From Loigolactobacillus iwatensis (GTDB lineage: Bacteria > Bacillota > Bacilli > Lactobacillales > Lactobacillaceae), in NCBI RefSeq assembly GCF_003950295.1, contig NZ_RHNP01000009.1, positions 1-64,000 of the forward strand: a stretch of 64,000 bases of DNA. The letters run 5' to 3'. Below the pieces are notes generated by a model. The model did no database searches and was not told where the DNA came from. It worked only from the letters and a program-made list of their open reading frames with translations. Position 1 is the first letter of the stretch. Each line of letters begins with the position of its first letter. Positions 301-15,539 of the stretch are shown here, one piece after another. The position numbers and the translations under genes were made by a program.

Positions 301-1182
301 TCAATCATGTTCAGTAAGCCACTTTTCGAGAATCTCGATATATTTATCGGTCTCTTCCACAAATGACATGTGGCGACTATGCGCGAATAACTCCCAGCGT
401 GCTCCTGGAATCCCATCATACATTGTCTTTGCAATAAGTGGTGTGCATAAATCATTAGTGCCACTAGTTACTAGAGTTGGCAGCTTGATGTCTTTTAATT
501 GAGCAGTATAATCGTAATTTTTTAGCGTCCCCAATGGATTATATTCATTAGGGCCCCACGCCGTCACGTAAGATTCAGTTCCGCTAACCTTTTTACGCCG
601 CAAAGGTTCTGGTGAACTGGCCGTTGGAGTTGCTGCGGCATGTTGTACCATATAACGATCATTTGCCGCTAAGTAAGCCGGAGCAGTATAATCGTTAGTT
701 GCCTCGGCATGAGCGATTGCTTTTTGATCTTCTTTTGATAAAAATTTAATCATTCGGTGCTGCTCTTGTGCCCAAAGTTTGGCTGACGGTAAGGTACTTG
801 CTAGTATCATGCTTTTGATACCAGCTGGCGCGTAATCGCAAGTATAAATCAACTCCAACATTCCACCCCAGGATTGACCTAATAAATGAACTTGATCTAA
901 ATTAAGGTATTTTCTTAAGGCAATCAGTTCATTTACCCAGGTTTCCGATCGCCATAACGCAGGATTAGATGGAACAGCCGAAAGACCACAACCTAATTGG
1001 TCGTACATAATTAATTGACGACCATCTACGGCCATTTGATCTAATATCTCAAAATAATTATGCGTTGAACCCGGGCCGCCATGAAGTAAAAGCAATGGTT
1101 TCTTGTTACCTTTTTGTTCACCAACAATCCGGTAATAAGTTTTATAACCCAAATACGGCATATAACCTTCTTCGATCTTCAT
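301..1182 (-). CDS. pepI: Prolyl iminopeptidase (alpha/beta hydrolase, S33)
   Basis: Cytosolic exopeptidase that releases N-terminal proline from peptides. At 293 aa it matches the usual length of lactobacillal PepI. The oxyanion-hole segment HGGPG is at residues 34-38 and the nucleophile elbow GQSWGG places the catalytic serine at 104. The probable acid is D244 (GTND) and the probable base H271 (SRHMSF). There is no signal peptide. The start is an ATG preceded by GGAGG. It is the last gene of a leftward series (POT transporter, tRNA-Sec, two ThrE-like genes, pepI), and its proline-releasing activity fits the PrdC and Xaa-Pro peptidase genes nearby. Family assignment is firm. Coupling to proline reduction is inference. 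Confidence 0.92.
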   Translation of the reverse strand: MKIEEGYMPYLGYKTYYRIVGEQKGNKKPLLLLHGGPGSTHNYFEILDQMAVDGRQLIMYDQLGCGLSAVPSNPALWRSETWVNELIALRKYLNLDQVHLLGQSWGGMLELIYTCDYAPAGIKSMILASTLPSAKLWAQEQHRMIKFLSKEDQKAIAHAEATNDYTAPAYLAANDRYMVQHAAATPTASSPEPLRRKKVSGTESYVTAWGPNEYNPLGTLKNYDYTAQLKDIKLPTLVTSGTNDLCTPLIAKTMYDGIPGARWELFAHSRHMSFVEETDKYIEILEKWLTEHD

Positions 1183-1251
1183 TGATATCCGCCTCCATAA
1201 TTCATTGTTATTAAATTCGTTAAAATAAAATTAATTGTAAAATTTTAGGAC

Positions 1252-1713
1252 CTACTTATTCTTTTGTTCTAACAATTTTTGACGCCTCCGGTAGGCATAG
1301 AACCACTTGGGTGAAAACTCATAAGCCACACTTATTCCTAAAGAAATAGCAATTGCAATCTTCAGAACTTGTACACCGGTTTGTGCGGCCTTTACTGAAT
1401 CACCAATAAAAAAATTATACGTAAAATTATAAATACCAATTCCTGGGACTAAACAAAAAATACCACAAATCAGAAAAATAGTTACGGGTGCGCGTAAAGC
1501 ATAAGCGGCTTCGCGGGATAAAAAGGTTAGCACCAACGCGGACACAAATGTTGCGGTAACTGGCACGGTCCAATAATGCATAATAACTAGGTAGATAAAC
1601 CAACCAAAGGCGCCAATCCCCCCACAATAAAGGTAATACCTTTTTGGTGATTCAAACAAAATGGCAAAAGATACTGTCCCTAAAAAACCAGCAATTAATT
1701 GAAGTAAGATAAT
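1252..1713 (-). CDS. Threonine/serine exporter small subunit (ThrE C-terminal half, DUF3815 type), probable ATT start
   Basis: Small membrane protein with about four transmembrane segments, the second half of a split ThrE-type exporter. The first ordinary start codon in frame is a TTG at 1659, giving 135 aa and cutting off the first membrane helix. The reading frame continues upstream without a stop to a TAA near 1735, and contains no ATG, GTG or TTG there. An ATT at 1711-1713 sits 7 bases after an AGGGGGG ribosome-binding site that overlaps the stop codon of the preceding gene. Starting there gives about 153 aa beginning with a hydrophobic helix (IILLQLIAGFLG), the length expected of this family. 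I therefore choose the ATT start. The transported substrate is unknown. Confidence 0.75.
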   Translation of the reverse strand: MILLQLIAGFLGTVSFAILFESPKRYYLYCGGIGAFGWFIYLVIMHYWTVPVTATFVSALVLTFLSREAAYALRAPVTIFLICGIFCLVPGIGIYNFTYNFFIGDSVKAAQTGVQVLKIAIAISLGISVAYEFSPKWFYAYRRRQKLLEQKNK

Positions 1714-1724
1714 TTGGCACCCCC

Positions 1725-2483
1725 CTAAAGCATATTAAACAACTGCAAAACAATACCAACACCAACCGAAATACAGAGTGAAGTCACCACTGCATCAATC
1801 ATTTGGCCCCAACCAGAACTATAATCTTCGTTAAATAAATAACGAATACCATTTACTAATGGAACTCCTGGAACTAGCGAAATAATACCGCCAATTATTA
1901 AACTATTTAACCGTAAAACGGGAAATAATTTAACGGCAATACAAGCTAAAATGCTGACCAGCATGCTACTTGTAACGTTGATAACAATTTTTGACATATT
2001 GACTCGCGGTAAAATAAAAATACTGTAGATGGATAAAATAATCCCTAAAATCAGTGCCCCTAACGAATCCCAAATCGTTCCGCCAAAAATATAACAGAAA
2101 CTAGCACTTCCCAAAGCGTAAGCAACTATTTTTAATCTAGTTGAAGTAAAACCTTGCTTTTTTATTTCTTCCAGCCGAGCCATAGCCTCCTCAGCAGTCA
2201 CTGTGCCTTCAGACATTTGTCGTGATAATGTATTGATGCCTTCAATTCGTCCCAACGAAATTGGTGAAATTGGAATGACCCGGACACGTGCTTGAACCAT
2301 GCCATTATCACAGTAGGCCGTCATAAAGATACCGTTTATTAAAACAAAGCTATCAAAATCCTTTAATTTTAAAGAAACGGCCACATGCCGAATTGTCAGT
2401 TCAACTCGTTTAATCTCCGCACCATTTTTTAACAGCGACTCCCCGATATCATAAACTAAATCAAACCGTTCCCGCTCATCCAC
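1725..2483 (-). CDS. Threonine/serine exporter large subunit (ThrE N-terminal half, DUF1212)
   Basis: 252 aa integral membrane protein. Residues 1-110 form the soluble DUF1212 portion (contains NGAEIKRVE and VRVIPISPISLGRIEGIN), followed by about five hydrophobic helices in the C-terminal half (AYALGSASFCYIF onward). In actinobacteria both halves are fused in ThrE; in Firmicutes they are commonly two adjacent genes, as here. The stop codon lies 12 bases before the proposed start of the small subunit, so the two are translationally linked. Family members export threonine or serine; in this proline-metabolism setting export of another amino acid or omega-amino acid is possible, but nothing in the sequence shows it. 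Confidence 0.85.
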   Translation of the reverse strand: MDERERFDLVYDIGESLLKNGAEIKRVELTIRHVAVSLKLKDFDSFVLINGIFMTAYCDNGMVQARVRVIPISPISLGRIEGINTLSRQMSEGTVTAEEAMARLEEIKKQGFTSTRLKIVAYALGSASFCYIFGGTIWDSLGALILGIILSIYSIFILPRVNMSKIVINVTSSMLVSILACIAVKLFPVLRLNSLIIGGIISLVPGVPLVNGIRYLFNEDYSSGWGQMIDAVVTSLCISVGVGIVLQLFNML

Positions 2484-2758
2484 TAGTCGCGCCTCCTACT
2501 TACCAAGCCTAAAATTTTTATGCCCTTTAACTTTTTACCCTAACCATCACGGCCTCCTCTTTTTTATATTGATTAAAAATGCGCTTACATGTTCAGTGTA
2601 CTATAAACCAATCCATTTTAAACCAAGGAATGTCAGGAAAAACACTCAAGTTCGACGTCACAATTATGGTAGGTACAGAAAACTGTATTTTCAAACACGT
2701 TTACACTGAATTAGTCAGGTAAATACTAAAGGTATTTTCCAAACATAATCTAAGCTAT

Positions 2759-2790
2759 AAAAAAAGCGCGAAACCAGATTAGTTTCGCGC
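2759..2790 (-). terminator. Terminator behind the tRNA-Sec gene
   Basis: A perfect 9-bp stem GCGCGAAAC / GTTTCGCGC with a 7-base loop is followed on the minus strand by seven Ts. It is 29 bases past the tRNA 3' end and would end the POT-transporter/tRNA transcript. The rest of the 2484-2818 gap contains the presumed promoter of the ThrE pair; I see no further gene. Confidence 0.85.
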
Positions 2791-2818
2791 CTTGCCTTAA
2801 ACGGCGTTAATTTGCTAT

Positions 2819-2915
2819 TGGCGGGAATGTGTGGGAATCGAACCCACCTAAGAAGCTCTTAACTCCTCATACTGGTTTTGAAGACCAGAGGGAACACCAG
2901 AACCCATCCACTCCC
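2819..2915 (-). tRNA. selC: tRNA-Sec (selenocysteine, anticodon UCA)
   Basis: The minus strand folds as a 97-nt tRNA with encoded CCA. The acceptor arm starts GGGAGTG and pairs with CATTCCC, followed by discriminator G and CCA; the eighth pair typical of bacterial tRNA-Sec would be a G-A mismatch. The anticodon arm is CTGGT-CTTCAAA-ACCAG, so the anticodon is UCA, reading UGA. The variable arm is long: TGAGGAG pairs with CTTCTTA over seven pairs around a 7-base loop. The T arm is GTGGG-TTCGATT-CCCAC. The D arm is imperfect (GGGTTC/GTTCCC around TGGT with two T-T oppositions). Anticodon, length and long variable arm together identify tRNA-Sec rather than serine or tryptophan suppressors. It lies 43 bases behind the POT gene and is probably co-transcribed with it. 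Confidence 0.85.
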
Positions 2916-2958
2916 ACCAAACATATTACACAGAACGTAAATAGTTGTCAATGTTCTT

Positions 2959-4419
2959 TTAAACGACTTGAATTAATCTTTGCAGTCTATTTCTAAAAGC
3001 AAACAGTAATAGACCAACTAAAATTGCAATAATTCCGAAAGTGCTAAAATAGGCAATTTCTGTTTCTGGTTGATAAAAGCGGACAATTTGTGCATTAATT
3101 GATTGCGCCGCGGCGTCGCCCAAAAACCAAACGCTCATCATTTGTGCCTGAAATGCTTTTGGTGCTAATTTAGTGGTTAACGATAAACCGACTGGTGAAA
3201 TCAACATTTCACCAACTTCTACTAATCCCCAACAAAGAATTAACCAAAACGGGCTAACCTTGGCGGAAGTTCCGAATAGTGCTACGGGAATAACCATAAC
3301 CAAGAACGAAATTCCTGCAAAAACCATACCGATAGCAAATTTATTTGGTGAAGAAGGCTGGCGTTTCCCCAATTTAGTCCAAAGAAAAGCAAACATTGGG
3401 GTGTACATAATAACGAATAAAGCATTAACACTCTGCAATTGACTAGGTTCAATGTGCATGCCCAGTATATGTAAATTCGTTTGTGAAGAAGCAAATAATG
3501 CTAAAACAACGGAACCTTGCTCGTAAATGGACCAAAAAACAATACTTGCAATGAACAGAAAAATATAAGCATAAATTCGCTTTCGTTCTGGGTCGGTTAC
3601 CTTACTGCTTCTGATGATAACCGTAAAATAAACAACTGGTAAAACAACACCTACAATTGTAATCAGTAAAATAATATTAGTGATCGAAAATTCACCAGTA
3701 ATCCCCATAATACCTAAAATAATGGCTAGTGCAATTAGTCCCAAGATTATTCCCTTAATAACATTTTTAGCGCTATCACTATTGAGTGGATCAGTTGGTT
3801 TTAAGCCATCATCACTTAAATACTTACGACCATTAAAGTAATACTGAAGCAGCCCTACAAACATACCAATTGCTGCAATTGAAAAGCCAAGATGATAATT
3901 ATAAGTTTGACCTAACCAACCCACTATCCAAGGCGCAATCAACGCCCCAATATTAATACCCATATAATAAATTGTGAAACCTGCATCACGCCGGGAATCC
4001 GTTTTACTATATAGACCACCAACCATGTCCGATACGTTAGGCTTTAATAACCCAGTACCCATAGTAATTAAAAGAATTGATAAAAGTAATCCAATCATGC
4101 CCATTGGAGTTGATAGGACAATGTGGCCAAACATAATTAAAATACCACCATAAAGTACCGTTCGCCGGGGTCCTAATATTCGATCACTAACAAACCCACC
4201 AACAACGCTGGACATGAATACAAGGGCACCATAAATTGCCATAATTGACGCCCCTAAAGGTGCATCAATTGCTAGGCCACCATTTTTAATCTTATCCAAC
4301 ATATAAAAAAGTAAAATAGCACGCATACCATAATAGCTAAATCGTTCCCATAATTCAGTGAAGAATAGGGTTGAAAGCCCTCTGGGATGACCGAAAAATT
4401 GATGATCATATTTATCCAT
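2959..4419 (-). CDS. dtpT: POT-family di/tripeptide:proton symporter (DtpT type)
   Basis: Membrane transporter that brings di- and tripeptides into the cell with protons. 486 aa with 12-14 hydrophobic helices. The family ExxER motif is intact (FTELWERFSYYGMRA near the N-terminus), and the PTR2 signature region GTGLLKPNVSDMVGGLY and the later FxxxxxE-type segment (WGLVEVGEMLISPVGLS) are present. The ATG start has GGAGG 7 bases upstream. It is flanked by prdC upstream and tRNA-Sec downstream on the same strand. Uptake of proline-containing peptides would feed the neighbouring peptidases; that substrate preference is inference. Confidence 0.93.
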   Translation of the reverse strand: MDKYDHQFFGHPRGLSTLFFTELWERFSYYGMRAILLFYMLDKIKNGGLAIDAPLGASIMAIYGALVFMSSVVGGFVSDRILGPRRTVLYGGILIMFGHIVLSTPMGMIGLLLSILLITMGTGLLKPNVSDMVGGLYSKTDSRRDAGFTIYYMGINIGALIAPWIVGWLGQTYNYHLGFSIAAIGMFVGLLQYYFNGRKYLSDDGLKPTDPLNSDSAKNVIKGIILGLIALAIILGIMGITGEFSITNIILLITIVGVVLPVVYFTVIIRSSKVTDPERKRIYAYIFLFIASIVFWSIYEQGSVVLALFASSQTNLHILGMHIEPSQLQSVNALFVIMYTPMFAFLWTKLGKRQPSSPNKFAIGMVFAGISFLVMVIPVALFGTSAKVSPFWLILCWGLVEVGEMLISPVGLSLTTKLAPKAFQAQMMSVWFLGDAAAQSINAQIVRFYQPETEIAYFSTFGIIAILVGLLLFAFRNRLQRLIQVV

Positions 4420-4779
4420 AATATTCCTCCAGTAATTTGAATACAGAACAAATCAAAAAGGTACTTTGCTAAACTTAAAAAATTATTGATTTATCTTAAG
4501 TTACTTTCTCAAAACTGTTTTTATACGTTACCTAAATCCTTATCCGATAACACTTAACGGTATCGGTAACTGAAAAGTGTTTGAAAAATTATTTTTACTA
4601 GTATTTTTCTGACCAAATTTATTTAGAATTGTCTGAAAGAACGGCCTTCTGTACTGCTTCGAACACTTTCTACGCCACAAGCGTGCACCTTAATTAATTG
4701 AAACTTTTTCACATGAGTTCTTATAGAAAAAGAGTGCCCATACTTATCAACACAAGTAATCACACTCTCCTAATTAAAA
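4420..4779. other. Non-coding gap between prdC and the POT gene
   Basis: No gene seen. Near the prdC end, 4731-4768 contains a weak two-part hairpin (AGAGTG/CACTCT with inner TACTT/AAGTA) with Ts on the minus-strand side, a possible prdC terminator. The remainder is AT-rich and presumably carries the promoter of the POT/tRNA-Sec unit; I could not assign clear -35/-10 boxes. Confidence 0.4.
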
Positions 4780-6093
4780 TTATTGGTCGTTCTCTGGCAA
4801 CATATGACGCATAATTCGTTCTCCAGTAGCACGACGAGCAAAATCGGTTGTATGGAAAACTGGTAAATTTAATTTTGGTGCAATTCCCATAACGGTATTT
4901 GTACAATCAGTACAATTACCAATTAATAAGGTCTTTGCTCCCATTTTACGTAAATTCAGAACTTTTTCAGCTTGTCCTGGGCAAACACCTGGATTAATAC
5001 ATTTAGCAGTCCCAGTCTTAGGATTAACAACAGCATTTTTACACCATTGAACACCGACAACATCGGCCCCCATTTTACCAGCGATTTCTTTCATTCGTTC
5101 TGGTGTCGCACTGCAGGCACAGGCTAACAAACCAACCTTTTCACCATTCAACTGTGGGAATGGAATAGTAGCAATAATGCCACCAGTAGTTTTGGTAATT
5201 GGTTGATCTCGTTCAGTATGTTTACCAGTGAAAGGACCACCCATAATTAATTCACCATAATCGGCCATTTCAGGATACTGATCTAACAATGTCCCAACGG
5301 GTGTTCCAACTGGTACATCCTTATGAACAGAAACAATTTCATTATCGCCCTGTAAACGACCAGCAATGGTAATATCTTTAGTAATAACTGGTTGGCGATC
5401 CTCAATTGCTTGTGCAACTCGAAAAACAGTTTCTACATTAATAACAATCGCATTAGCCGCATAAGGTAACTCATCCGTCTTCAAAAGCTTATCAATCTTA
5501 GAATCACGAATAATTGCTCTTTCTTCGCCTTCTGGATAACGGTTACGCAAGATTTCTAAAGAAATATCGTCATGTCCACGAATAGCTTCTTCTAAAAGAG
5601 CTACAGCATTGGTATGCTTACGCTTAATGGCAATCTGAACATCAGCAGCGTCAACAATTTCTTTTACGTATTCAATCCCCCGAATAATCTTTTCAGCATC
5701 GGTCTGAATTCTAGAAATATTATGACCCAAAATTGGCTCACATTCAGCGGCATTAATTAGTAAATGACCGTTAGTAATTGGTTTTGCCAATTTAGCATAC
5801 GTTGGAAAACCAGCACCGCCGGCACCAACAATACCCGCTAATTTAATCGCATCTACATTAGAATCTGTTGCTTCTATTGGTACAAAATCTTTAGGCTGCT
5901 CATCATCCGCATCAATTACAATAGCAGAATCAGTAATGTCACTGACCTTACCACTAACACTGGCATGCAGGTAAGCACCTAAGCCTTCTGGAATTCCAAT
6001 TAATTGTCCGCGTTTAACCACTTCACCGACTTTAATAGTTGGTTTTGCAGGTCCGCCAACATTTTGCTTTAATAACAAAGTGATTTGTTGCAC
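4780..6093 (-). CDS. prdC: PrdC-like, RnfC-related electron-transfer protein of D-proline reductase
   Basis: Resembles PrdC, the flavin/iron-sulphur RnfC-like protein that delivers electrons to D-proline reductase in Stickland clostridia. The N-terminal barrel-sandwich segment (LKQNVGGPAKPTIKVG, then GQLIGIPEGLGAYLHASVSG) and the nucleotide-binding loop GIVGAGGAGFPTYAKL with NAAECEP downstream are characteristic. The C-terminal quarter is cysteine-rich (LACACSATPERM, QWCKNAVV, CINPGVCPGQ, GNCTDCTN). Where clostridial proteins often carry a Cys or selenocysteine after the GAP motif, this protein has alanine. I choose a GTG start because AAGGGA lies 9 bases before it; an ATG nine bases further upstream overlaps that site, and the longest frame (ATG at 6135) has no ribosome-binding site. 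Product 437 aa. No in-frame UGA is present. Confidence 0.82.
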   Translation of the reverse strand: MQQITLLLKQNVGGPAKPTIKVGEVVKRGQLIGIPEGLGAYLHASVSGKVSDITDSAIVIDADDEQPKDFVPIEATDSNVDAIKLAGIVGAGGAGFPTYAKLAKPITNGHLLINAAECEPILGHNISRIQTDAEKIIRGIEYVKEIVDAADVQIAIKRKHTNAVALLEEAIRGHDDISLEILRNRYPEGEERAIIRDSKIDKLLKTDELPYAANAIVINVETVFRVAQAIEDRQPVITKDITIAGRLQGDNEIVSVHKDVPVGTPVGTLLDQYPEMADYGELIMGGPFTGKHTERDQPITKTTGGIIATIPFPQLNGEKVGLLACACSATPERMKEIAGKMGADVVGVQWCKNAVVNPKTGTAKCINPGVCPGQAEKVLNLRKMGAKTLLIGNCTDCTNTVMGIAPKLNLPVFHTTDFARRATGERIMRHMLPENDQ

Positions 6094-6451
6094 TTTAATC
6101 ATTCCCTTATGTTTTTTCACAAATGAAAAACACATAGCACACGTTAATAATAGCAGAAATAAAAATGAATGTAACCCTTTTCCAAAAAAGAAACTATTGC
6201 TTTACTATTAATCATAAATAATTTAAAGACTAATCCTTTAAAAAAATTGTTGTATTTGAACGACTAAAATATAAAGAACTAGCACCTACTAAGTTTAAAC
6301 ATGAGCTTAGTAGGTGCTAGTTCTGATGCATTAAAATTCTTGTTCGATTATATTAGATTCTTGCTTCCATTTCATAGCGAGTCGCAAGTTGTTTTAGTAA
6401 TATTTTTCTAAATTTCTCAAAACTAGTGCCTTTGCCGTAAATTCTGTTTAC
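6094..6451. other. Gap upstream of prdC
   Basis: No gene seen. It contains the 19-bp hairpin listed separately (6275-6324), and should contain the prdC promoter between the hairpin and 6135. I looked for a -24/-12 sigma-54 promoter, as used by some proline reductase operons, and did not find one. Confidence 0.4.
6275..6324 (-). terminator. Very strong hairpin downstream of the second POT gene
   Basis: Arms 6275-6293 and 6306-6324 are perfectly complementary over 19 bp around a 12-base loop. On the minus strand the stem is followed by TTATATTTT. It lies about 130 bases beyond the POT stop and 180 bases before prdC, so it separates the two leftward genes. The T tract is interrupted, so an RNA-stability or attenuation role is also possible. 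Confidence 0.65.
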
Positions 6452-7816
6452 CTATTCTGTCTTTTCAAGATCATCAAGCTTGCTACTCGAAAACCAGAGA
6501 ATAAGGCCTAAAATAATCACGATAATTGCCAAAATACCATAGCCCTTTTGGAATTGGCTAGGGACATCCGTTTTAAGTAGCTCATAAACTTTAGGATAAA
6601 TTAAAGTCGCGAAAAAGACGGCAATTGGCCAAAATCCTAGTAAAACACCCATTAATTTAGATGGTGCTAATTTTGTGATAAAGGAATTACCAACCGGCGA
6701 GAAGACCATTTCTCCGACTGACATTAAAATACTAATCAATACAATCCATAGTATTGAAGTACTTCCATGACCGACAATATCGGCCACCACCATAACAACG
6801 TAAGCAACCCCAATGAAAATTATACCCAAAGCCGTTTTTTTAAACATACTCAAATCGCCTTGTGGTCGTTGTGACAACTTAGTCCATAATTTACCAATAA
6901 TTGGACCTAAGGCAATACAGGCCAGTGCATTCATTGAATCAAAATAAGAAGTTGGTACTTTAAAACTACCAATTACCCAGTTGGCACGATTTAAGAAAGC
7001 AGCGCCATCCCCGTAACCAAAGTAGTAGTAAGTTGGCATGTAAGCCAAATACCAGACCATCCAAAATACTACAGAGAATAAAGTTACTAAAATAATTGCC
7101 ATAACTCTCTTTTTATCGCCTGAAGTTAATGGCTTATTCTTATTTGCTTCTTTAGTTGCTTGTTCTTCATCACTGATTTTAAATTTACGCTGATCAACTT
7201 TAAATGGCTTTTTACCAGCATCACCCAATGACTTTCCGTTAACCGTAAACCAAATAGCATCAGCAAAAAGTAATAATCCACAAATCAAGAAGACAAAATT
7301 AAATCCGTATGAGGCAATTAATAACACAATAAATGTAGTCCCAATGAAGGAACCGACGTTTACAAATGAATATTGCACTGAAAAAGCTTCATTAAGATCT
7401 TTTTCATCGGTAAATAAAAGACCATTAACACCCGATAGATTACCCTTAAATAGGCCCGTACCCACTGCTACTAAGATAATCATAATCCAAACCATTGGTA
7501 TTGAATGTGCCTGCCAGGTAACTAGGTATCCTGCGCCCATTAAAAACATGCCCAAGGTGACACAAATTCGCGGACTTAGCCAATAATCCGCAATATATCC
7601 GCCAATAACGGGGGCGATATACGTCATTGCAATGAAAGTTGCCGCCATTGAAGCCGCTTTTACATCACTAAGCCCTAGTCCGCCATTACCAACGGAAGTG
7701 GCAATCCAAATCGCCAGCATATACTTAACTGTATAAAAGGCGGCTCGTTCCAGCGTAAATCCTATGGAACAGACATAAAAACCAAATGGTTTCTTTTTCT
7801 TTATCGGTGTATTCAT
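6452..7816 (-). CDS. Second POT-family peptide transporter, atypical proton-coupling motif
   Basis: 454 aa membrane transporter of the proton-dependent oligopeptide family: about 12 helices, with PTR2 features GTGLFKGNLSGVNGLL and SVGEMVFSPVGNSFITKLAPSKL. The start is an ATG behind GAAGG; a TTG six codons upstream is less likely. Compared with the canonical ExxER helix-1 motif, this protein reads FTLER, so the first glutamate is missing while the second Glu and the Arg remain. These residues take part in proton coupling in characterised POT proteins, so transport energetics or substrate may differ from the DtpT-like neighbour. It is divergent from the Xaa-Pro peptidase gene across a 700-base gap and faces prdC downstream. 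Confidence 0.88.
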   Translation of the reverse strand: MNTPIKKKKPFGFYVCSIGFTLERAAFYTVKYMLAIWIATSVGNGGLGLSDVKAASMAATFIAMTYIAPVIGGYIADYWLSPRICVTLGMFLMGAGYLVTWQAHSIPMVWIMIILVAVGTGLFKGNLSGVNGLLFTDEKDLNEAFSVQYSFVNVGSFIGTTFIVLLIASYGFNFVFLICGLLLFADAIWFTVNGKSLGDAGKKPFKVDQRKFKISDEEQATKEANKNKPLTSGDKKRVMAIILVTLFSVVFWMVWYLAYMPTYYYFGYGDGAAFLNRANWVIGSFKVPTSYFDSMNALACIALGPIIGKLWTKLSQRPQGDLSMFKKTALGIIFIGVAYVVMVVADIVGHGSTSILWIVLISILMSVGEMVFSPVGNSFITKLAPSKLMGVLLGFWPIAVFFATLIYPKVYELLKTDVPSQFQKGYGILAIIVIILGLILWFSSSKLDDLEKTE

Positions 7817-8512
7817 AGTTTTACCTTCTTTCAACCAAATCTATTTTTAACTACTAATCATATTAATGTAAGCCAGCCTTCTAAAAAATAACTTTCCGTT
7901 CTCTTCTTTCATCAAGGATCACGTTTAAGTACACTACGAATTTCTGTTTAACGTAATAGTATTTAAGTAAGACAACAAATAATAATCTGTGGGATAGATA
8001 GCTTTTGCCAATTTTACCTCCTAAATATTCTAATAAGTTTACAGGTAGCTCGCAATTGATCATTTATTCACTTAAAAGGATTTAGATTTGTTAATAATTA
8101 ACCTAACAATTTTATATTTACCGTGTTAATTATAGCATCTTTAAAATTACTAATATTTGTATTAAATTTTAATTAGCAGTAATTAGTCCTATTTATACTT
8201 TTTCTATAAATAAGTGATTCCAATGATTACGCCCATATGACAGGACTTATGTAGCTATCAAAAAAATAAAATAAATTGAACATAAAATATTTAAAGAGTA
8301 TATTTCAAATTAATTTTAATTAAGCATTGAATAAGCACTGTTTAATAAGCGCTTTCATAAAAAACGCTAAAAATCATTTTTAAAAAAATAAATTAGTCTA
8401 ATATAAGCAAAATTATACATGTATTTGTGAAATTATCTCAAACTGGTTTTAGTTGATGAAATTTTAGACTATACTTACTGTGAATTCAATTATATCTAAG
8501 GAAGTGAAGCTT
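7817..8512. promoter_or_regulatory. Divergent control region between the POT gene and the Xaa-Pro peptidase gene
   Basis: About 700 AT-rich bases without a convincing gene; a 60-codon frame at 7881-8063 has no ribosome-binding site. A cre-like sequence, AATAAGCGCTTTCA at 8344-8357, matches 12 of 14 positions of the CcpA box and lies roughly 120 bases before a TATACT element (8469-8474) that could serve as the -10 of the peptidase gene. Catabolite control of peptide use is therefore plausible but unproven. Confidence 0.4.
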
Positions 8513-9583
8513 TTGAAAAACGAAACAAAGATTCAAGCCTTTTTGGTAGAACAACATTTAGATGCCTTTTTTATTGCCAAAAGAGTGAATGTCCGTTTTG
8601 CAAGTGGTTGGACTGGCGATGACTCTTATATTTTGTTGACTCAAAAAAATCAATATTTCTTAACTGACCCTCGTTATACGGAACAAGCGGACCTTGAAAT
8701 TCCAGACTACAATATTATTAACTGGCGCTTACCGGGAAAAACGGTTGGTGACACTGTTGCGCAGTTAGCCCAAGAAAACAACCTGAAAACAATAGCATTT
8801 GAATCGGATTATCTGAATTTTGATATGTACGATGATTTTCGAGAAAAAAGTAACGTAGATTTAATTAAGGCCGGCGGTGTTATTGATAAAATGCGTATCA
8901 TTAAAACATCAGAAGAAATTCAAAATATGCGCATTGCCTGTGATATTTCTTGTCGTGCGTTCGAACGTATTTTGAAAGATATCCATGTCGGTGTCACAGA
9001 AAAAGAATTGGCCGCAAAACTTTCTCTATACATGGTCGAAGAAGGTGCCGATACTCAGCCTTATGGTAATATCTTAATTTCAGGTGCTCGCACTTCTTTA
9101 CTTCATGGTATTCCCTCAAAAAAGGCTATTGAATACGGTGATTTTGTTTTGATGGACTACGGTTGTCAATATAATGGTTATTTATCCGATATGACAAGAA
9201 CAGTTGTTGTTGGTAAGGCAACCGCAAAGCAGCGTGAAGTTTACGAGTACGAAAAGCGTTCATTGGAAGCTTGTGAAGAAATCATGCAAGCTGGTGTATC
9301 TGCTAAAGAATTCTATCCAAAATCATTAGAGCCGCTTCAAGGAACAAATTACGCTGACTACACTTACGCTAATATTGGCCATAGTATTGGTTTATTTGTT
9401 CACGAATTACCTTACCTTTCTACTCAGTTTAACGATATTCTGGAGGAAAATACAGTTATAACCATCGAACCAGGTATTTATTTACCTAATTGGGGTGGAA
9501 TTCGTATCGAAGACCAAGTGCTTGTTAAAAAAGATGGCTTTGAAAATATGATCAGTATTCCCCATGATTTAATTGAATTATAG
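8513..9583 (+). CDS. Xaa-Pro peptidase (M24B, PepP/PepQ type)
   Basis: Metallopeptidase that cleaves peptides or dipeptides next to proline in the cytosol. The N-terminal creatinase-like domain (about residues 1-125) is followed by the pita-bread domain with the expected metal ligands: Asp in LMDYGCQYNGYLSDMTR (two Asp), His in NIGHSIGLFVHELP, Glu in TIEPGIYLP and the last Glu in GIRIEDQV. The TTG start at 8513 is chosen since AAGGAAG lies 7 bases before it; a GTG 11 codons upstream has no such site. Length 356 aa is normal. Aminopeptidase P versus prolidase cannot be settled by eye. It is followed 78 bases later by a C69 dipeptidase gene. Confidence 0.9.
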   Translation: MKNETKIQAFLVEQHLDAFFIAKRVNVRFASGWTGDDSYILLTQKNQYFLTDPRYTEQADLEIPDYNIINWRLPGKTVGDTVAQLAQENNLKTIAFESDYLNFDMYDDFREKSNVDLIKAGGVIDKMRIIKTSEEIQNMRIACDISCRAFERILKDIHVGVTEKELAAKLSLYMVEEGADTQPYGNILISGARTSLLHGIPSKKAIEYGDFVLMDYGCQYNGYLSDMTRTVVVGKATAKQREVYEYEKRSLEACEEIMQAGVSAKEFYPKSLEPLQGTNYADYTYANIGHSIGLFVHELPYLSTQFNDILEENTVITIEPGIYLPNWGGIRIEDQVLVKKDGFENMISIPHDLIEL

Positions 9584-9661
9584 TTCTCGCCTTTTATTTT
9601 CAAAAGATTAACTTATTAAGATGCTGTTTTTTAATGAAGCCAACCTTAAGGAGTAATACTC

Positions 9662-11104
9662 ATGATAAAAGATAAAAAGAATTTCAATTCAGATTGTACA
9701 GCAATACTAGTTGGGAAAAATGCCAGTATGGATGGCTCTACTATGATTGCACGTGATGAAGATGGTCATGATGGTGTTAAACCAAAATTATTTGTCACTT
9801 ATCCAGCAAAAGATCACAATGGTGAAACATTTATTTCGACTTATAATGGCGTTAAGGTTCCTTTAACCGAAAAAGCCTGCCGTTACACAGCAACTCCAAA
9901 TGCCGATCAAAGTGAAGGTATTTGGGACGAACAAGGTATTAATGAATATAACGTTGGAATGAGCGCTACAGAAACTGAGTTTACCAATCCTCGTGTTTTA
10001 GGCTATGATCCGTTAGTTGAGGATGGAATTGATGAAGATTCAATGGTTACCTTGGTATTACCCTATATTAAGACAGCTCGTGAAGGTGTTATTCGTTTAG
10101 GTGGCCTCATTGAAAAGTATGGTACTGGAGAAACTAACGGTATTGCTTTCAATGATAAAGACGAGATTTGGTATCTCGAAACAGGCGGCGGCCATCAATG
10201 GGTTGCCCAACGGATTCCAGACGATGCCTACGCTGTTGCACCAAATATTATGTGTATCGAAGAAATCGACTTTAACAATTCAGACTTTTTTATGACTTCA
10301 AGTAATATCCAAGCCTTTGTCGAAACAAATCATTTAAATCCAAATCCACAAACTTTTAATTTTAGAAATATATTTGGAACAAAAGATGAAGCAGACGCCT
10401 ACTATAACACGCCTCGCTCATGGTATGGTCAAAAATTATTTACACCAGACTTAGAGCAAGCACCAACTAGTCAGGATATTCCCTTTATTCAAAGAGCAAA
10501 TCGTAAAATTGCAGTTGAAGACGTCGAATTCTTTTTATCCTCCCATTATAATGGCACGCCTTATGATCCTTTTGATACCTATGCTTCTGGAACAAAAGAC
10601 GAACAGAAAAAATTCCGTTCAATTGCATTAGATCGTAATCACTGCGCCTGCATACTCCAAATCCGTAATCATGTGGCCGAACAATTAGCTGCAGTACAAT
10701 GGATCAACCTAGGTTTCTACTGCTATAGCCCGTTTGTTCCATTCTATACAAATGTCACCGATACCCCTAAAAATTATCAAGTTGCGGATGCTAAAGTTTC
10801 GCTAAATAGTGCGTATTGGCTGTACAAGGCGTTACAAGTAGTTGTTGAACCGCATTATCATCAATTTATTAGCCAGGTTAACGATTACCGCGATACAAGT
10901 CAAAGTTACGTTTTGGGACGTTTGAAAAAAATCGACACTGATGCTGCTCAGTTATCAGCTGATAAAATCACAAGCTATCTGACAAAGGCCAATGATGATA
11001 CTGCAGGAAACATCACAAATAAAACTGAAGTATTATTAAGTGATTTATTCAAACAATCGTTGTTATCTTCAAAATATTTCTTTGATCGTGGACAGAACTT
11101 ATAA
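9662..11104 (+). CDS. pepD: C69-family dipeptidase (PepD type)
   Basis: Broad-specificity dipeptidase, an N-terminal nucleophile hydrolase. 480 aa; the predicted nucleophile is the cysteine in SDCTAILVGKNAS (about residue 12), exposed after removal of a short propeptide. Family motifs MIARDED, EGIWDEQGINEYNVGMSATET and the WYLETGGGHQWVAQR segment are clear. The ATG start has AAGGAG 8 bases upstream. It lies behind the Xaa-Pro peptidase and probably shares its promoter, since no terminator separates them. Together they would finish degradation of peptides imported by the two POT carriers. Confidence 0.92.
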   Translation: MIKDKKNFNSDCTAILVGKNASMDGSTMIARDEDGHDGVKPKLFVTYPAKDHNGETFISTYNGVKVPLTEKACRYTATPNADQSEGIWDEQGINEYNVGMSATETEFTNPRVLGYDPLVEDGIDEDSMVTLVLPYIKTAREGVIRLGGLIEKYGTGETNGIAFNDKDEIWYLETGGGHQWVAQRIPDDAYAVAPNIMCIEEIDFNNSDFFMTSSNIQAFVETNHLNPNPQTFNFRNIFGTKDEADAYYNTPRSWYGQKLFTPDLEQAPTSQDIPFIQRANRKIAVEDVEFFLSSHYNGTPYDPFDTYASGTKDEQKKFRSIALDRNHCACILQIRNHVAEQLAAVQWINLGFYCYSPFVPFYTNVTDTPKNYQVADAKVSLNSAYWLYKALQVVVEPHYHQFISQVNDYRDTSQSYVLGRLKKIDTDAAQLSADKITSYLTKANDDTAGNITNKTEVLLSDLFKQSLLSSKYFFDRGQNL

Positions 11105-11780: not shown

Positions 11781-12542
11781 TCAGTCAAGTGCTAATTCAG
11801 CCAAATTATGGCGCAACATTTTAAGTTCAATTTGACCTGGCGCTGAAGCTGCACCAACCGTTCCAAACGTTAGTGCTGAACCAAATACTTCCCCACTAAT
11901 TCGGCTGATTTTACCAAGGTTACCCATTGCCATCGTAATCAATGGAATTGTTAATTGGCGGTGTGCTGCCTCGGTTGCCGCCAATAGTGTTGAAACATCT
12001 GCAGCAGACTGCGGCATTACAGCTATCTTAGCAACGTCAGCGTTCAGTTGAGCCATCTGAGTGAGCCGACTAATGATTTCGGTCTTAGCCGGTGTTTGTT
12101 GAAAGTCATGATTGCTCATAATAATCGCAATATTTGAATCGTGTGCGGCAGTAATTAAATCGCCAACAATTCGTTGTGGTAAAAATAATTCAATATCAAG
12201 TGCATCAGTTAGCTGATGATTAATAATTTGTTGATAAATGGCAACATAGTTATCTGCACTAAGTGGCATCCCACCGCCTTCTTTTTGCGTACGGAAGGTT
12301 GTCAGTAGCGGAATATCACCAAGTAGTTTATTTAATTGTAGCGCCGTTTCGCGATAATTTTCAAAATTAAGAATGTCCTGATAATAATCCAGTCGCCATT
12401 CAATTAAATCCGGCCTAGCAGCAACAATCTTATTTGCTTGTTCTAAAATGGTTGACCGATCCTTACCAGTGATTGGTACGGCAATTTTTGGTCGGCCACT
12501 ACCCAACACAACTTGTTTTAATTTAACCGTGGTAACTGTCAA
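11781..12542 (-). CDS. aroD: 3-dehydroquinate dehydratase, type I
   Basis: Interconverts 3-dehydroquinate and 3-dehydroshikimate through a Schiff base. 253 aa, a normal type I length. Visible active-site residues: E48 and R50 in EWRLDYY, R84 and E88 (FRTQKEGGG), general base H145 (MSNHDF) and Schiff-base lysine K172 (AKIAVMPQ). The start is a TTG preceded by GAAGGGA at about 11 bases. It follows aroE (119-base gap) in a leftward pair controlled next to a divergent LysR gene. Grouped with dehydrogenases and regulators rather than with other chorismate-pathway genes, it probably serves quinate/shikimate use, not only aromatic biosynthesis; that role is inference. Confidence 0.95.
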   Translation of the reverse strand: MTVTTVKLKQVVLGSGRPKIAVPITGKDRSTILEQANKIVAARPDLIEWRLDYYQDILNFENYRETALQLNKLLGDIPLLTTFRTQKEGGGMPLSADNYVAIYQQIINHQLTDALDIELFLPQRIVGDLITAAHDSNIAIIMSNHDFQQTPAKTEIISRLTQMAQLNADVAKIAVMPQSAADVSTLLAATEAAHRQLTIPLITMAMGNLGKISRISGEVFGSALTFGTVGAASAPGQIELKMLRHNLAELALD

Positions 12543-12661
12543 TGAAGATCAATTCCCTTCTTAATCTGAATAAACAAACTCCTTGAAAATGATGGTGCGC
12601 ACTTGCAACCACGAAGGCTACTAACCAAAAATACCTGATGATAATAGCAAACTATCTACTG

Positions 12662-13543
12662 CTATTTACTAGCGTCTGAGAAAAGCAGTTCATGAATATA
12701 ATCCACCGGCATATCTTCACCAGTCCAAAGTTTGAAGGCCTGGGCGCCCTGCTCAAGCATCATACCCAAACCATTAAACACGTGTTTAACGCCAGCCTTC
12801 TTGGCAACCTGCATTAACTTTGTTTCTCGCGGTGCGTAAACTGTATCAAAAACGATCATATCCTGCCGGAAAAAACTAGGGTCCGTGATTAAGCTCTGAT
12901 CTTGTAGTGGTTTCATACCAACACTAGTTGCATCACAATAAATAGCAGAATCAGCGATTTCAGAACGGTACTTATCTTGTTCGTCCAGTGAATGTAAAGT
13001 TGCTTTACACTTAGTTTGGGCGTTAATGGTTGCAACATTTTTTTTTGCTTGCTCCCAGTGAGCATCCTTTAAATTAAAGATTGAAATTTCTTTAACGCCA
13101 TCAAGAGCTGCCTGAATCGCAATTGCCGTACCTGCACCACCTGCTCCTGCCAAGGTCATTTTTTTACCCCGAATATCTAAATTTTCATCATCTAGAGATT
13201 GCATGAAACCAGTACCGTCAGTTGTGTAGCCAGTTAAAACACCAGTATCGTTCACAATTGTGTTAACCGCGCCCACCATTTCTGCTGCAGGGTCCAATTT
13301 ATCCAATAACGGAATGACTTTTTGCTTGTTAGGCATTGAAATATTTGAACCACGCATACCTAATGTCCGAATAGCATCAATAGCGCCTGGCAATTCTTTA
13401 TTTGTGACGTCAAATGCAAGGTAAGCGTAATTTAATCCTAACTTTGCAAAAGCATTATTGTGCATTGTTGGTGACATTGAATGGCGAATGGGATAGGCCA
13501 TTAATCCAATTAAAATAGTGTGTCCATCAAGTCTTTCTGCCAT
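12662..13543 (-). CDS. aroE: Shikimate/quinate dehydrogenase paralogue 1
   Basis: NAD(P)-dependent dehydrogenase interconverting shikimate and 3-dehydroshikimate, or quinate and 3-dehydroquinate. 293 aa from an ATG with GAGGGA about 9 bases upstream; a longer upstream frame has no such site. Substrate-binding residues are in place: S22 and S24 (HSMSP), catalytic K73 (NISMPNK), N94 (GAVNT) and D109 (TTDG). The nucleotide loop is GAGGAGTA. The usual NTDG reads TTDG, a small divergence. It heads the aroE-aroD pair and diverges from a LysR gene 174 bases away, suggesting substrate induction. Quinate versus shikimate preference cannot be read by eye. Confidence 0.92.
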   Translation of the reverse strand: MAERLDGHTILIGLMAYPIRHSMSPTMHNNAFAKLGLNYAYLAFDVTNKELPGAIDAIRTLGMRGSNISMPNKQKVIPLLDKLDPAAEMVGAVNTIVNDTGVLTGYTTDGTGFMQSLDDENLDIRGKKMTLAGAGGAGTAIAIQAALDGVKEISIFNLKDAHWEQAKKNVATINAQTKCKATLHSLDEQDKYRSEIADSAIYCDATSVGMKPLQDQSLITDPSFFRQDMIVFDTVYAPRETKLMQVAKKAGVKHVFNGLGMMLEQGAQAFKLWTGEDMPVDYIHELLFSDASK

Positions 13544-13717
13544 AATAAAAATCCCTCTTTCATAGTTCATTTTACAATATATTAAGCTAGCTTTAGTCAA
13601 AAAATCATTTGTTACATAGTTCACTTATAATGGTAGTGCTTTCAATTAGTGAAATAAATAATGTTAATTTGATTAAATAATAGAATGTATCTATTATTTA
13701 GTTTAGAGGTGATCATT
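13544..13717. promoter_or_regulatory. aroE / LysR divergent promoter region
   Basis: A short AT-rich spacer between divergent genes, the normal place for LysR-type operators. It contains ATAATGGTAG and AATAATAGAATGTAT-type elements, but I could not pick out one convincing T-N11-A dyad. Confidence 0.4.
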
Positions 13718-14647
13718 ATGAATTTACGCCATTTAATCTTTTTCCGAGAATTGGCACACACTCAGTACATGGCAAAAGCGGCCGAAAATCTAAATATTTC
13801 ACAGCCTTCATTAAGTTACGCTATTAGTCATTTAGAACAAGAATTAGGAGCACCGTTATTTGAAAAAGACGGCCGTAATATTAAGTTAACTTCTTTTGGC
13901 AAGATTTATTTAGAATTTGTTCAACGTGGTTTAACTGAATTAGACAATGGTCAAGCACTAATTAGTCAGCTTTTAAATGTGAATGAAGGCCATATCCACT
14001 TAGGATTTACCTATACGCTTGGGCAACGCTTAGTTCCTGAACTAGTAACCAAATTTCAAAAAGATCCGGCCAATCAAAAAATCACTTTTTCTTTTGCGCA
14101 AGGCAACACAACGCAATTATTGACTGATTTATTGGCCGAACGATATGATTTCGTTCTGTCTTCCCATATTGCTGCTATCGGCGATCAAAACCTGCACAAT
14201 AAATTGACCTTCACCCCAATTGTTCAACAAGAGATTGTTTTGGCTGTTCCCAATGATCATCCTCTAGCTAGTCGTGATACTGTCTCGCTAAAGGAAATTC
14301 AAAATTATCCTCTAATCTATTTTTCTAAAAATAGCGGCTTACGACCGTTACTAGATAATTTATTGAAGACGGCAAACGTTAAACCAAATATTCGTTGTGA
14401 AATTGAGGAAGACCACACTATAATCGGCTTTGTTCAGTACGGTTATGGCATTGCTTTAGTTCCCAACTTACCACAATTGGACCACTCATTAGTTCATATT
14501 GTACATATTAAAGAAAGTAGCGCCACTCATCAAATTTATTTAGTTTTAAAAAATAATCATTTTTCTCCACCATCTTCTTCACGCTTTCAGAATTTTGTCG
14601 AAAACTACTGCCAGAAAAATTTCACCGCCAAAAAACGGTTAATCTAG
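13718..14647 (+). CDS. LysR-family transcriptional regulator (aroE/aroD linked)
   Basis: 309 aa. N-terminal winged HTH (MNLRHLIFFRELAHTQYMAKAAENLNISQPSLSYAISHLEQEL, written here in parts: helices at residues 1-20 and 28-48) with the typical GAPLFEKDGR wing, followed by a periplasmic-binding-like effector domain from about residue 90. The start is the ATG behind GAGGTGAT; an ATG 11 codons upstream lacks a site. It is divergent from aroE-aroD, and by family habit would activate them in response to a pathway metabolite such as quinate or a shikimate derivative. The effector is not identifiable from sequence. Confidence 0.9.
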   Translation: MNLRHLIFFRELAHTQYMAKAAENLNISQPSLSYAISHLEQELGAPLFEKDGRNIKLTSFGKIYLEFVQRGLTELDNGQALISQLLNVNEGHIHLGFTYTLGQRLVPELVTKFQKDPANQKITFSFAQGNTTQLLTDLLAERYDFVLSSHIAAIGDQNLHNKLTFTPIVQQEIVLAVPNDHPLASRDTVSLKEIQNYPLIYFSKNSGLRPLLDNLLKTANVKPNIRCEIEEDHTIIGFVQYGYGIALVPNLPQLDHSLVHIVHIKESSATHQIYLVLKNNHFSPPSSSRFQNFVENYCQKNFTAKKRLI

Positions 14648-14742
14648 GGAGTATTTTGGGGTTAATAGTCTTGCTAGGCTTTGATTTTTCTGCTACTTTC
14701 ATCCCGTGGTAATCTTAGTCGCTAAAAAAAGGGGGCCTAAAA

Positions 14743-15393
14743 ATGAGTGAACATCCTAAATTTTCCAATACCATGCCAGTTAGCGAATTTCTAGAACATT
14801 ATTGGTACAAAACGGAATTACAGACAATCTGCCGGCAAAATAAACTACCAACATTTGGCACTAAGGCCGAATTAACCAATTACTTAGTGGCATTTTTAAA
14901 TGATATCCCTTCGAACAAAATAAAAACAGTCCGTAAAGTCACTAGACAAAAGTCGTTAAAATCTTACGAAATTACCCCAAAAACTAAGTTACTCAATTCA
15001 GGGTTCTCATTAAACAACGAAGCTCGACAATTTTTCACCGATTACTTTCACACCACTAAATTTTTCTTTAAAAAGATCATGACAATTAAACTCCGTGAAG
15101 TACAACGAACAAAAGATGTGCATGCGGATGTTGCCGCTTTAATTAAATTTTATTTAGATGATCAAAATCACGAAAAAAGCTTTAATAACGCCGAGGAAAG
15201 TACTTATCAGTGGAATAATTTTGTCAGAGATTTTTGTAAAGATCCACAGTCTACTAACTACTCAAATAAGCTTAAAGTCGCAGCAATTTTATGGCAGAAG
15301 GTTAAACTAGGTCGCGGTGCCAAACAATATAAGTCGGTCTTAATTCAACGTTATAGTACCGCAATTCAAAACTATCTGTTACCCAGTAAATAA
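14743..15393 (+). CDS. SAP-domain protein (DUF6434 type)
   Basis: 216 aa soluble basic protein. Residues about 12-48 form a SAP-like helix-extension-helix (SEFLEHYWYKTELQTICRQ then GTKAELTNYLVAFL), a fold often used for nucleic-acid binding. The C-terminal half (about 95-210) is the conserved region of the DUF6434 family, with YQWNNFVRDFCKD and KLKVAAILWQKVK. Function unknown. The start ATG follows a GGGGG purine stretch about 7 bases upstream. It is isolated between a LysR gene and a terminator, and looks unrelated to the surrounding pathway. Confidence 0.8.
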   Translation: MSEHPKFSNTMPVSEFLEHYWYKTELQTICRQNKLPTFGTKAELTNYLVAFLNDIPSNKIKTVRKVTRQKSLKSYEITPKTKLLNSGFSLNNEARQFFTDYFHTTKFFFKKIMTIKLREVQRTKDVHADVAALIKFYLDDQNHEKSFNNAEESTYQWNNFVRDFCKDPQSTNYSNKLKVAAILWQKVKLGRGAKQYKSVLIQRYSTAIQNYLLPSK

Positions 15394-15408
15394 ATACTAG
15401 AATTCAAA

Positions 15409-15445
15409 GGACTAACTCCATTAAACTCACGAGTTAGCCCTTTTT
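15409..15445 (+). terminator. Terminator of the SAP-domain gene
   Basis: Stem GG(A)CTAACTC / GAGTTAG(C)CC with a 12-base loop followed by five Ts, 16 bases past the stop codon. Confidence 0.8.
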
Positions 15446-15539
15446 GATTTTCTGATTTGATTACTATGATAATCAACAGTTGGTTGAAAAAGGCAATTTC
15501 AGTACCCTTCAACCGCTCATCTTAAAATTAAACCTGCTT

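Follow-up and report, generated by a model that had tools for sequence, protein, structure and literature searches.

Why does a lactobacillus carry a gene for a selenocysteine tRNA (tRNA-Sec) beside one for PrdC, the electron-transfer protein of D-proline reductase, in the midst of peptidases and peptide carriers? These genes lie at the left end of the 64,000-nucleotide stretch of Loigolactobacillus iwatensis analysed here, which we call the window (positions 1 to 64,000 of contig NZ_RHNP01000009.1; G000:C89:1-64000 in our numbering). The genome has 2,622,292 bases in 89 contigs and is 99.99% complete with 0.58% contamination. Proline reduction and genetically encoded selenocysteine are, to our knowledge, not textbook traits of lactobacilli. 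Judged by gene content, the genome nonetheless very probably encodes a complete D-proline reductase system that depends on selenium, with the half for peptide supply and electron transfer in the window. The island consists of nine features.

301-1182, minus strand: PepI, proline iminopeptidase, which releases N-terminal proline (NF045945, 513.7 bits, cut-off 400)
1252-1659, minus strand: ThrE_2-type exporter subunit (PF12821, 102.5 bits)
1725-2483, minus strand: ThrE-type exporter subunit (PF06738, 186.5 bits)
2819-2915, minus strand: tRNA-Sec with anticodon TCA (ARAGORN; RF01852, 70.6 bits, cut-off 47)
2959-4419, minus strand: POT1, oligopeptide:H+ symporter (TIGR00924, 434.9 bits, cut-off 130.2)
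4780-6135, minus strand: PrdC, D-proline reductase electron-transfer protein, cysteine (Cys) form (TIGR04481, 614.9 bits, cut-off 490)
6452-7834, minus strand: POT2, peptide carrier (TIGR00924, 171.8 bits, cut-off 130.2)
8480-9583, plus strand: Xaa-Pro peptidase of family M24, PepQ-like (PF00557, 202.9 bits)
9662-11104, plus strand: C69 family dipeptidase, PepD (NF033678, 629.2 bits, cut-off 250)

The first-pass annotation of the window had named PepI, an Xaa-Pro peptidase, a C69 dipeptidase, two POT carriers, a PrdC-like protein and a tRNA-Sec, all of which were recovered at or near where it had placed them. The ThrE-type pair (1252-2483, minus strand), which it did not mention, is also part of the set, and homologues of both subunits lie by peptidases and prdC on a megaplasmid of Enterococcus raffinosus. 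The PrdC-like protein is PrdC by its own model, and its match to the rnfC model (184.5 bits) stays below the cut-off of 245.95; it has RnfC_N and FMN-binding domains. The RF01852 score of the tRNA-Sec is the highest among 397 Lactobacillaceae genomes. POT1 likewise stands between PrdC and tRNA-Sec in Loigolactobacillus bifermentans. Relatives of the Xaa-Pro peptidase are found near PrdC in that species (75% identity) and in G003, a genome of genus g4 (71%), where a 44% relative of the C69 dipeptidase adjoins PepQ.

The other half of the system is on contig C30 (32,287 bases, read whole), which was reached by a genome search with the Gly_reductase family and also has selA.

C30:27646-29562: prdA (TIGR04480, 948.3 bits, cut-off 700)
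C30, prd cluster: CBO2463-domain gene
C30:26583-27308: prdB with one in-frame UGA at codon 151, in the motif AG-U-GTCHR, selenocysteine in UxxC (TIGR04483, 401.3 bits, cut-off 300)
C30: prdD (353.6 bits, cut-off 320)
C30, prd cluster: prdE-like gene
C30: proline racemase-family gene, both Cys motifs intact (PF05544, 398.5 bits)
C30, after the racemase gene: TauE/SafE transporter
C30: selD (379 bits, over cut-off)
C30, between selD and the next gene: yedF
C30: DUF3343-like gene without a family match, labelled from its homologue on a Ligilactobacillus salivarius plasmid
C30: selB (347.3 bits, over cut-off)
C30: SclA-like pyridoxal phosphate (PLP) enzyme (SclA model 307 bits, below the cut-off of 525)
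C30: selA (592.6 bits, over cut-off)

The genes from selD to selA run in this order on one strand. The first-pass annotation had predicted prdA, prdB and sel genes elsewhere in the genome and named the absence of prdA/prdB or selABD as the outcome that would count against it; prdA, the UGA-containing prdB, selA, selB and selD are all on C30. With tRNA-Sec, SelA, SelB and SelD encoded in one genome, the set for decoding selenocysteine appears complete. The Thr-Cys motif of PrdA, at which cleavage to a pyruvoyl group is predicted, is intact (LTCIGPASK), and the pattern TCIGPA[ST]K is present in 37 of 37 regions. For the predicted prdF, a racemase-family gene with both Cys motifs exists on C30, but its score of 502.2 bits with NF010576 is below the cut-off of 556. 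Of 37 regions, 36 have the racemase motif SPCGTGTSA and 33 have the NMCGHNTI pattern. The PrdB on C30 is 92-98% identical to PrdB of L. bifermentans, a relative that also has prdA, prdC and selA; this identity argues against contamination. Rfam at gathering thresholds returned tRNA-Sec alone in the window and nothing in C30, and no known T-box or riboswitch in either.

Is the UGA in prdB a selenocysteine codon or a stop? It stands within AG-U-GTCHR in 32 of the 33 Lactobacillales PrdB sequences read. In the 32 UGA-PrdB genes (11 from the family set and 21 from the order set, near-copies kept) synonymous sites are close to frozen at codons +5 to +12 after the UGA. Codons +7 to +11 are each represented by one codon in 32 of 32 genes, as is codon +6 in the 26 genes with Thr there. 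Normalised codon entropy averages 0.32 over +1 to +16 compared with 0.70 upstream and 0.66 further downstream, and the lowest value in 88 other stretches of 16 codons is 0.48. A short CUGC/GCAG stem recurs after the UGA, and the corresponding downstream stretch differs in G224, a lactobacillus genome with Cys in this position of PrdB. The frozen codons are as expected of a bacterial selenocysteine insertion sequence (bSECIS), and the sequence evidence suggests that the UGA is read as selenocysteine.

The opposite reading is that of a decaying import whose prdB has become a pseudogene through a stop codon, in line with the 2014 annotation of the L. salivarius copy; in PMC4165912 the entry for LSJ_2018 reads 'Proline reductase, probable pseudogene'. 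Against such decay stand the position of the stop in a motif shared by 32 of 33 sequences, the frozen synonymous sites and the selenocysteine machinery in the genome, and the current plasmid record names the L. salivarius gene prdB. A decaying prdB is hardly credible.

The distribution of the genes among the 397 Lactobacillaceae genomes gives the same picture. PrdC exceeds its cut-off in 12 genomes, out of 22 that match at E 0.001; PrdB exceeds its own in exactly these 12, out of 13 that match. A tRNA-Sec survey, run with stricter filters, gave 12 genomes over cut-off. Eleven of them are the genomes with UGA-PrdB; the other is G033, in which neither PrdB nor PrdC reaches its cut-off and which carries glycine-reductase-type selenoproteins. 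The twelfth Prd genome, G224, has a Cys codon (TGC) in PrdB where the others have selenocysteine; its genome gave no selA match in a search that did not extend to selB and selD, and no tRNA-Sec, the best of its 129 candidates, all scored, reaching 38.4 bits where the cut-off is 47. Within the limits of these searches, UGA codons and the recoding machinery come and go together. A Cys-PrdB may or may not always go with loss of selenocysteine decoding: G922 pairs a Cys-PrdB with two tRNA-Sec matches barely over the cut-off (50.6 and 48.0 bits); the top scores in the 13 genomes other than G922 and G224 are 64.5-81.1 bits.

The same distribution bears on a further alternative, that the window's PrdC is in fact RnfC-like and works with a different partner, the tRNA-Sec being left over from an earlier state. 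The match of PrdC to the rnfC model and its Cys form would agree with this. However, PrdC is over its own cut-off and at that level occurs in the same 12 genomes as PrdB, an intact UGA-prdB and selABD are on C30, and a search with PF02508 detected no Rnf membrane subunit here (0 matches, compared with matches in 4 of 14 control genomes). An RnfC-like role with another partner is very improbable.

The pathway proposed by the first-pass annotation, from peptide import through proline release to reduction, is supported by this gene content, from which we infer how the steps connect, what donates the electrons, that a product is exported and what the cell gains. POT1 and POT2 would take up proline-containing di- and tripeptides, and PepI, the Xaa-Pro peptidase and the C69 dipeptidase would free L-proline, which the racemase encoded on C30 would convert to D-proline. 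PrdC would accept electrons, most likely from NADH via its FMN domain, and hand them to PrdA/PrdB, which would open the D-proline ring to give 5-aminovalerate. The window tRNA-Sec together with SelA, SelB and SelD from C30 would insert selenocysteine into PrdB. The ThrE pair may export a product, either a partner amino acid or 5-aminovalerate. A soluble NADH route and NAD+ regeneration are suggested because PrdC has RnfC_N and FMN-binding domains and no Rnf membrane subunit was found. Regeneration of NAD+ would be the main gain, so that sugar or amino-acid carbon could go to acetate and ATP. A classical Stickland pair may not be required, as electrons from sugar NADH would do.

The peptidases and carriers might instead be ordinary nutrition genes that lie by chance beside functional prd and sel genes. 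POT relatives of some type occur in 72 of the 80 genomes in the POT2 comparison, mainly at about 25-35% identity, and PepI and POT2 adjoin prd in only 5 of 33 prd regions. The POT2 subfamily itself is distributed differently. Relatives of at least 66% identity occur in 15 of the 33 Prd-positive but in 0 of the 47 Prd-negative genomes of this hand-picked set; within genera g1 and g4, which have members of both states, the figures are 8 of 9 and 0 of 21, and the Grd-bearing G033 is among the 21. One of the 15 genes is frame-disrupted (G404), and five further Prd-positive genomes have a relative at 45-49%. PepI adjoins a POT2 relative in 18 of the 19 loci inspected, including genomes in which the cassette and prd are on different contigs; this count excludes a second POT2 match each in G716 and G404, for which no locus was available. 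A dedicated supply of proline peptides is thus supported, since POT2 tracks Prd genomes and usually stands beside PepI, and a chance neighbourhood is unlikely.

The 33 prd regions come from 21 order genomes, 10 family genomes and two named plasmids, some of them ending at contig ends, with the window's genome and L. bifermentans outside the count; sel genes are present in 29-30 of them. On one contig of G003 the order is PepI, POT2, Xaa-Pro peptidase, C69 dipeptidase, an unlabelled open reading frame, a second proline-tRNA ligase (opposite strand), tRNA-Sec, prdC, prdA, prdB, prdD, prdE, racemase, TauE and selD to selA. Both here and on the E. raffinosus megaplasmid, peptidases and carrier are upstream of prdC-prdA-prdB. 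PepI and POT2 adjoin prdC in three genomes of a single genus (G589, G596, G692), as on that megaplasmid, and in the window PrdC lies between them. A published parallel is Clostridioides difficile, in which CcpA controls the pepI and Xaa-Pro dipeptidase genes together with proline reductase (PMC3510511).

Several observations weigh against the proposed system or its peptide supply. The two halves are on separate contigs. The first-pass annotation had suggested that the missing genes might lie left of base 1, but a junction of C30 with the left end of the window, a contig end of C89, was not supported, as no exact overlap of the ends was found. The racemase is below the cut-off already mentioned, and the Xaa-Pro peptidase is below the cut-off of every NCBIfam model listed for it (NF040821, 226.5 bits, cut-off 630). 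Thirteen of the 33 Prd-positive genomes have no POT2 relative above 40% identity, the linkage of PepI and POT2 to prd is restricted among the 33 regions to the 5 given above, and some 5 kb separate PepI from POT2 in the window. The 80 genomes were picked by hand from those already scanned, related species among them are not independent, and genera g73, g57, g65, g47, g48 and g53 are represented by Prd-positive members only. The hairpin after the Cys codon of the G224 gene is more stable (-11.9 kcal/mol) than those of the UGA genes (-6.8 to -10.7), and fold energy was discarded as a bSECIS marker because the Cys gene folds best. Rex-binding sites, scanned for as a hint of redox control, were at chance level both in the window (30 at up to three mismatches, 24 expected) and on the C30 stretch L004 (5 matches, 5.6 expected).

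PrdC occurs in two forms. The window protein has the motif NCTDCTN where the alignment shows CxxU in the selenocysteine form. The Cys form is common to the window, L. bifermentans (G191), Bombilactobacillus mellifer (G105), G106, G224 and the L. salivarius plasmid, with the variant NCSDCSN in G224; prdC is placed past selA in G105, G106 and the plasmid. The selenocysteine form with CxxU is already known (PMC13188914), and seven Prd-positive g4 genomes have it as CQDUTN. One branch (100/100) splits the two forms in a PrdC tree of 22 rows, in which g4 groups with other Lactobacillales and Acetoanaerobium. The PrdB tree (41 rows) instead unites g4 and the window's group (100/98). The simplest reading of this disagreement is that the window's lineage swapped its PrdC. 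Both trees are midpoint-rooted only, and G224 has a long branch and an unsure placement in each. Of the 33 regions, 14 are absent from the PrdC tree, namely the E. raffinosus plasmid and 13 Lactobacillales genomes, in which the motif missed a PrdC that tblastn finds, and 10 phylum loci gave no PrdC. Near-copies and odd lengths were left out of the PrdB tree, namely L037, L091, L093, L095, L100, L101, L104, L106, L218, L219, L227 and L228; it is also without Peptoclostridium, for which no sequence was obtained, and Paraclostridium (L121).

The prd locus of G224 (C121:19107-25155; L033, L072) has Cys-PrdB and Cys-PrdC, and no PrdD/E or sel genes in the stretch read. G224 is a candidate for a selenium-free D-proline reductase. 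A broader picture, which we favour by a narrow margin, combines two parts. A 'proline respiration' module would be passed around among the Lactobacillales, supplied by a PepI-POT2-Xaa-Pro peptidase cassette of its own, which tracks D-proline reductase even when unlinked, and in Lactobacillaceae this module would be weaned off selenium stepwise. A deeply separate Cys-PrdC would have replaced the selenocysteine form in the line of Loigolactobacillus, Bombilactobacillus and L. salivarius, and one species, G224, would show a further step, with PrdB and PrdC both in the Cys form and neither selA nor tRNA-Sec found.

Other traces of selenium use were seen in the family. A congener without PrdB or tRNA-Sec over cut-off has a 179-residue selA remnant (G068:C95:16154-16645, 169.5 bits, below cut-off), a probable trace of lost selenocysteine decoding. 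Glycine reductase (Grd) sets with UGA in both GrdA and GrdB were found in G033 (L076:124-7975) and G384 (L077:4685-12833), with scores of 266.3 and 248.1 bits for GrdA (cut-off 130) and 694.1 and 644.1 bits for GrdB (TIGR01917, cut-off 602.2). The G033 set adjoins selD-selA and comprises GrdX, GrdG-like, GrdA, GrdB, TrxB, TrxA, GrdC and GrdD; GrdC and GrdD were scanned in this genome only, and the labels GrdX, TrxA and TrxB are putative. GrdB-like UGA genes under the PrdB cut-off are present in 7 of the 397 family genomes.

Further genes accompany the two halves. C30 encodes a second proline-tRNA ligase (L003:3787-5220; proS family I, 593.6 bits, cut-off 437), presumably of the 'archaeal/eukaryotic type'; the usual bacterial ligase is on C37, and a second one is present in 11 of the 33 prd regions. 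Upstream of prdA (C30:30006-31056; L004:10006-11056) are a TudS-related putative desulfidase (NF045597, 146.7 bits, cut-off 130) and a small membrane protein without a Pfam match, both with relatives in 6 of the 33 regions. The block between TauE and selD (C30:12450-23178) includes a YdjY-domain protein, VTT-type membrane proteins, an ATP-binding cassette importer, CCG and 4Fe-4S proteins (HdrB/HdrC-like), a phosphotransferase, a nucleoside hydrolase and two 'arsenosugar' glycosyltransferase-like genes. It is largely present in L. bifermentans too, and possibly concerns sulfur or selenium uptake or a selenosugar. Adjoining the island in the window (11781-17258) are dehydroquinase/shikimate-dehydrogenase-like genes and a LysR-like regulator, assigned by eye, and a flavocytochrome-c-like reductase of 572 residues (211 bits, below the cut-off of 285.45), perhaps another electron sink.

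In the open literature, seen mostly at the level of titles and abstracts, no report was found that describes a cassette for proline peptides next to lactobacillus prd genes, that measures proline reduction in any lactobacillus, or that deals with Cys-PrdB there, with a Cys-PrdB lactobacillus without detected selA or tRNA-Sec, or with a Cys-type PrdC lineage. Enterococcus faecalis was at one time described as the sole SelD-bearing member of Lactobacillales (PMC1794560), proline reductase has been counted in 110 organisms (PMC5029168), and grdB and selA are listed in Enterococcus durans (PMC8894896). A selenoproteome review from 2026 does not have 'lactobacill' in its main text. Lactic acid bacteria are reported to make selenocysteine from selenite (PMC6588266; also the title of an L. 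reuteri paper), and in the parts available none of these reports was found tied to proline reductase.

Should the pathway be functional, proline peptides would serve some lactobacilli as an electron sink; these species would produce 5-aminovalerate and depend on selenium, and they might compete with C. difficile for proline. The POT2/PepI cassette points to the likely route of the proline peptides. A species with Cys-PrdB beside relatives with the selenocysteine form lends itself to asking what the enzyme needs selenium for.

Three known systems can be set beside the one described here. The clostridial prdABCDEF system is alike in PrdA with its cleavage motif, selenocysteine-containing PrdB, PrdC, a PrdD/E-like pair and a racemase. 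It differs in that here the host is a lactobacillus in which the search for Rnf membrane subunits gave nothing, peptidases and carriers form an added cassette, and PrdC has the Cys form rather than CxxU and is on a different contig from prdA/prdB.

Prd genes on plasmids are annotated in L. salivarius and E. raffinosus (prdA/B/C/D), and 22 plasmid records have prdA relatives. Eight of the records are Terrisporobacter plasmids of about 21 kb with prdA, and that of Terrisporobacter petrolearius (pTPHSE2, L120) has prdA-CBO2463-prdB. Region R1 of pMP1046A from L. salivarius JCM1046, reported to carry prdA to selD (PMC4165912), is a precedent within lactobacilli. The region has prdA, CBO2463, prdB, prdD, a prdE-like gene, racemase, TauE, yedF, selB, a class-V PLP enzyme, selA, prdC and selD, and its PrdC, in the Cys form, is 74% identical to that of the window. 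It is plasmid-borne and lacks PepI, POT and Xaa-Pro peptidase in the 29,896 bases read, and PMC4165912 reads it as serving the interconversion of L- and D-proline and selenocysteine synthesis. E. raffinosus pCX012922 has, in a row, an Xaa-Pro peptidase, the ThrE pair, a second Xaa-Pro peptidase, PepI, POT2 (70% identity), prdC, prdA, CBO2463 and prdB; its prdC is about 47% identical to that of the window, and no sel genes are in the 29,890 bases read. Compared with these systems, the locus is known machinery in an unusual host, to which the peptide cassette, the Cys-PrdC lineage and an apparently selenium-free relative add what appears to be undescribed.

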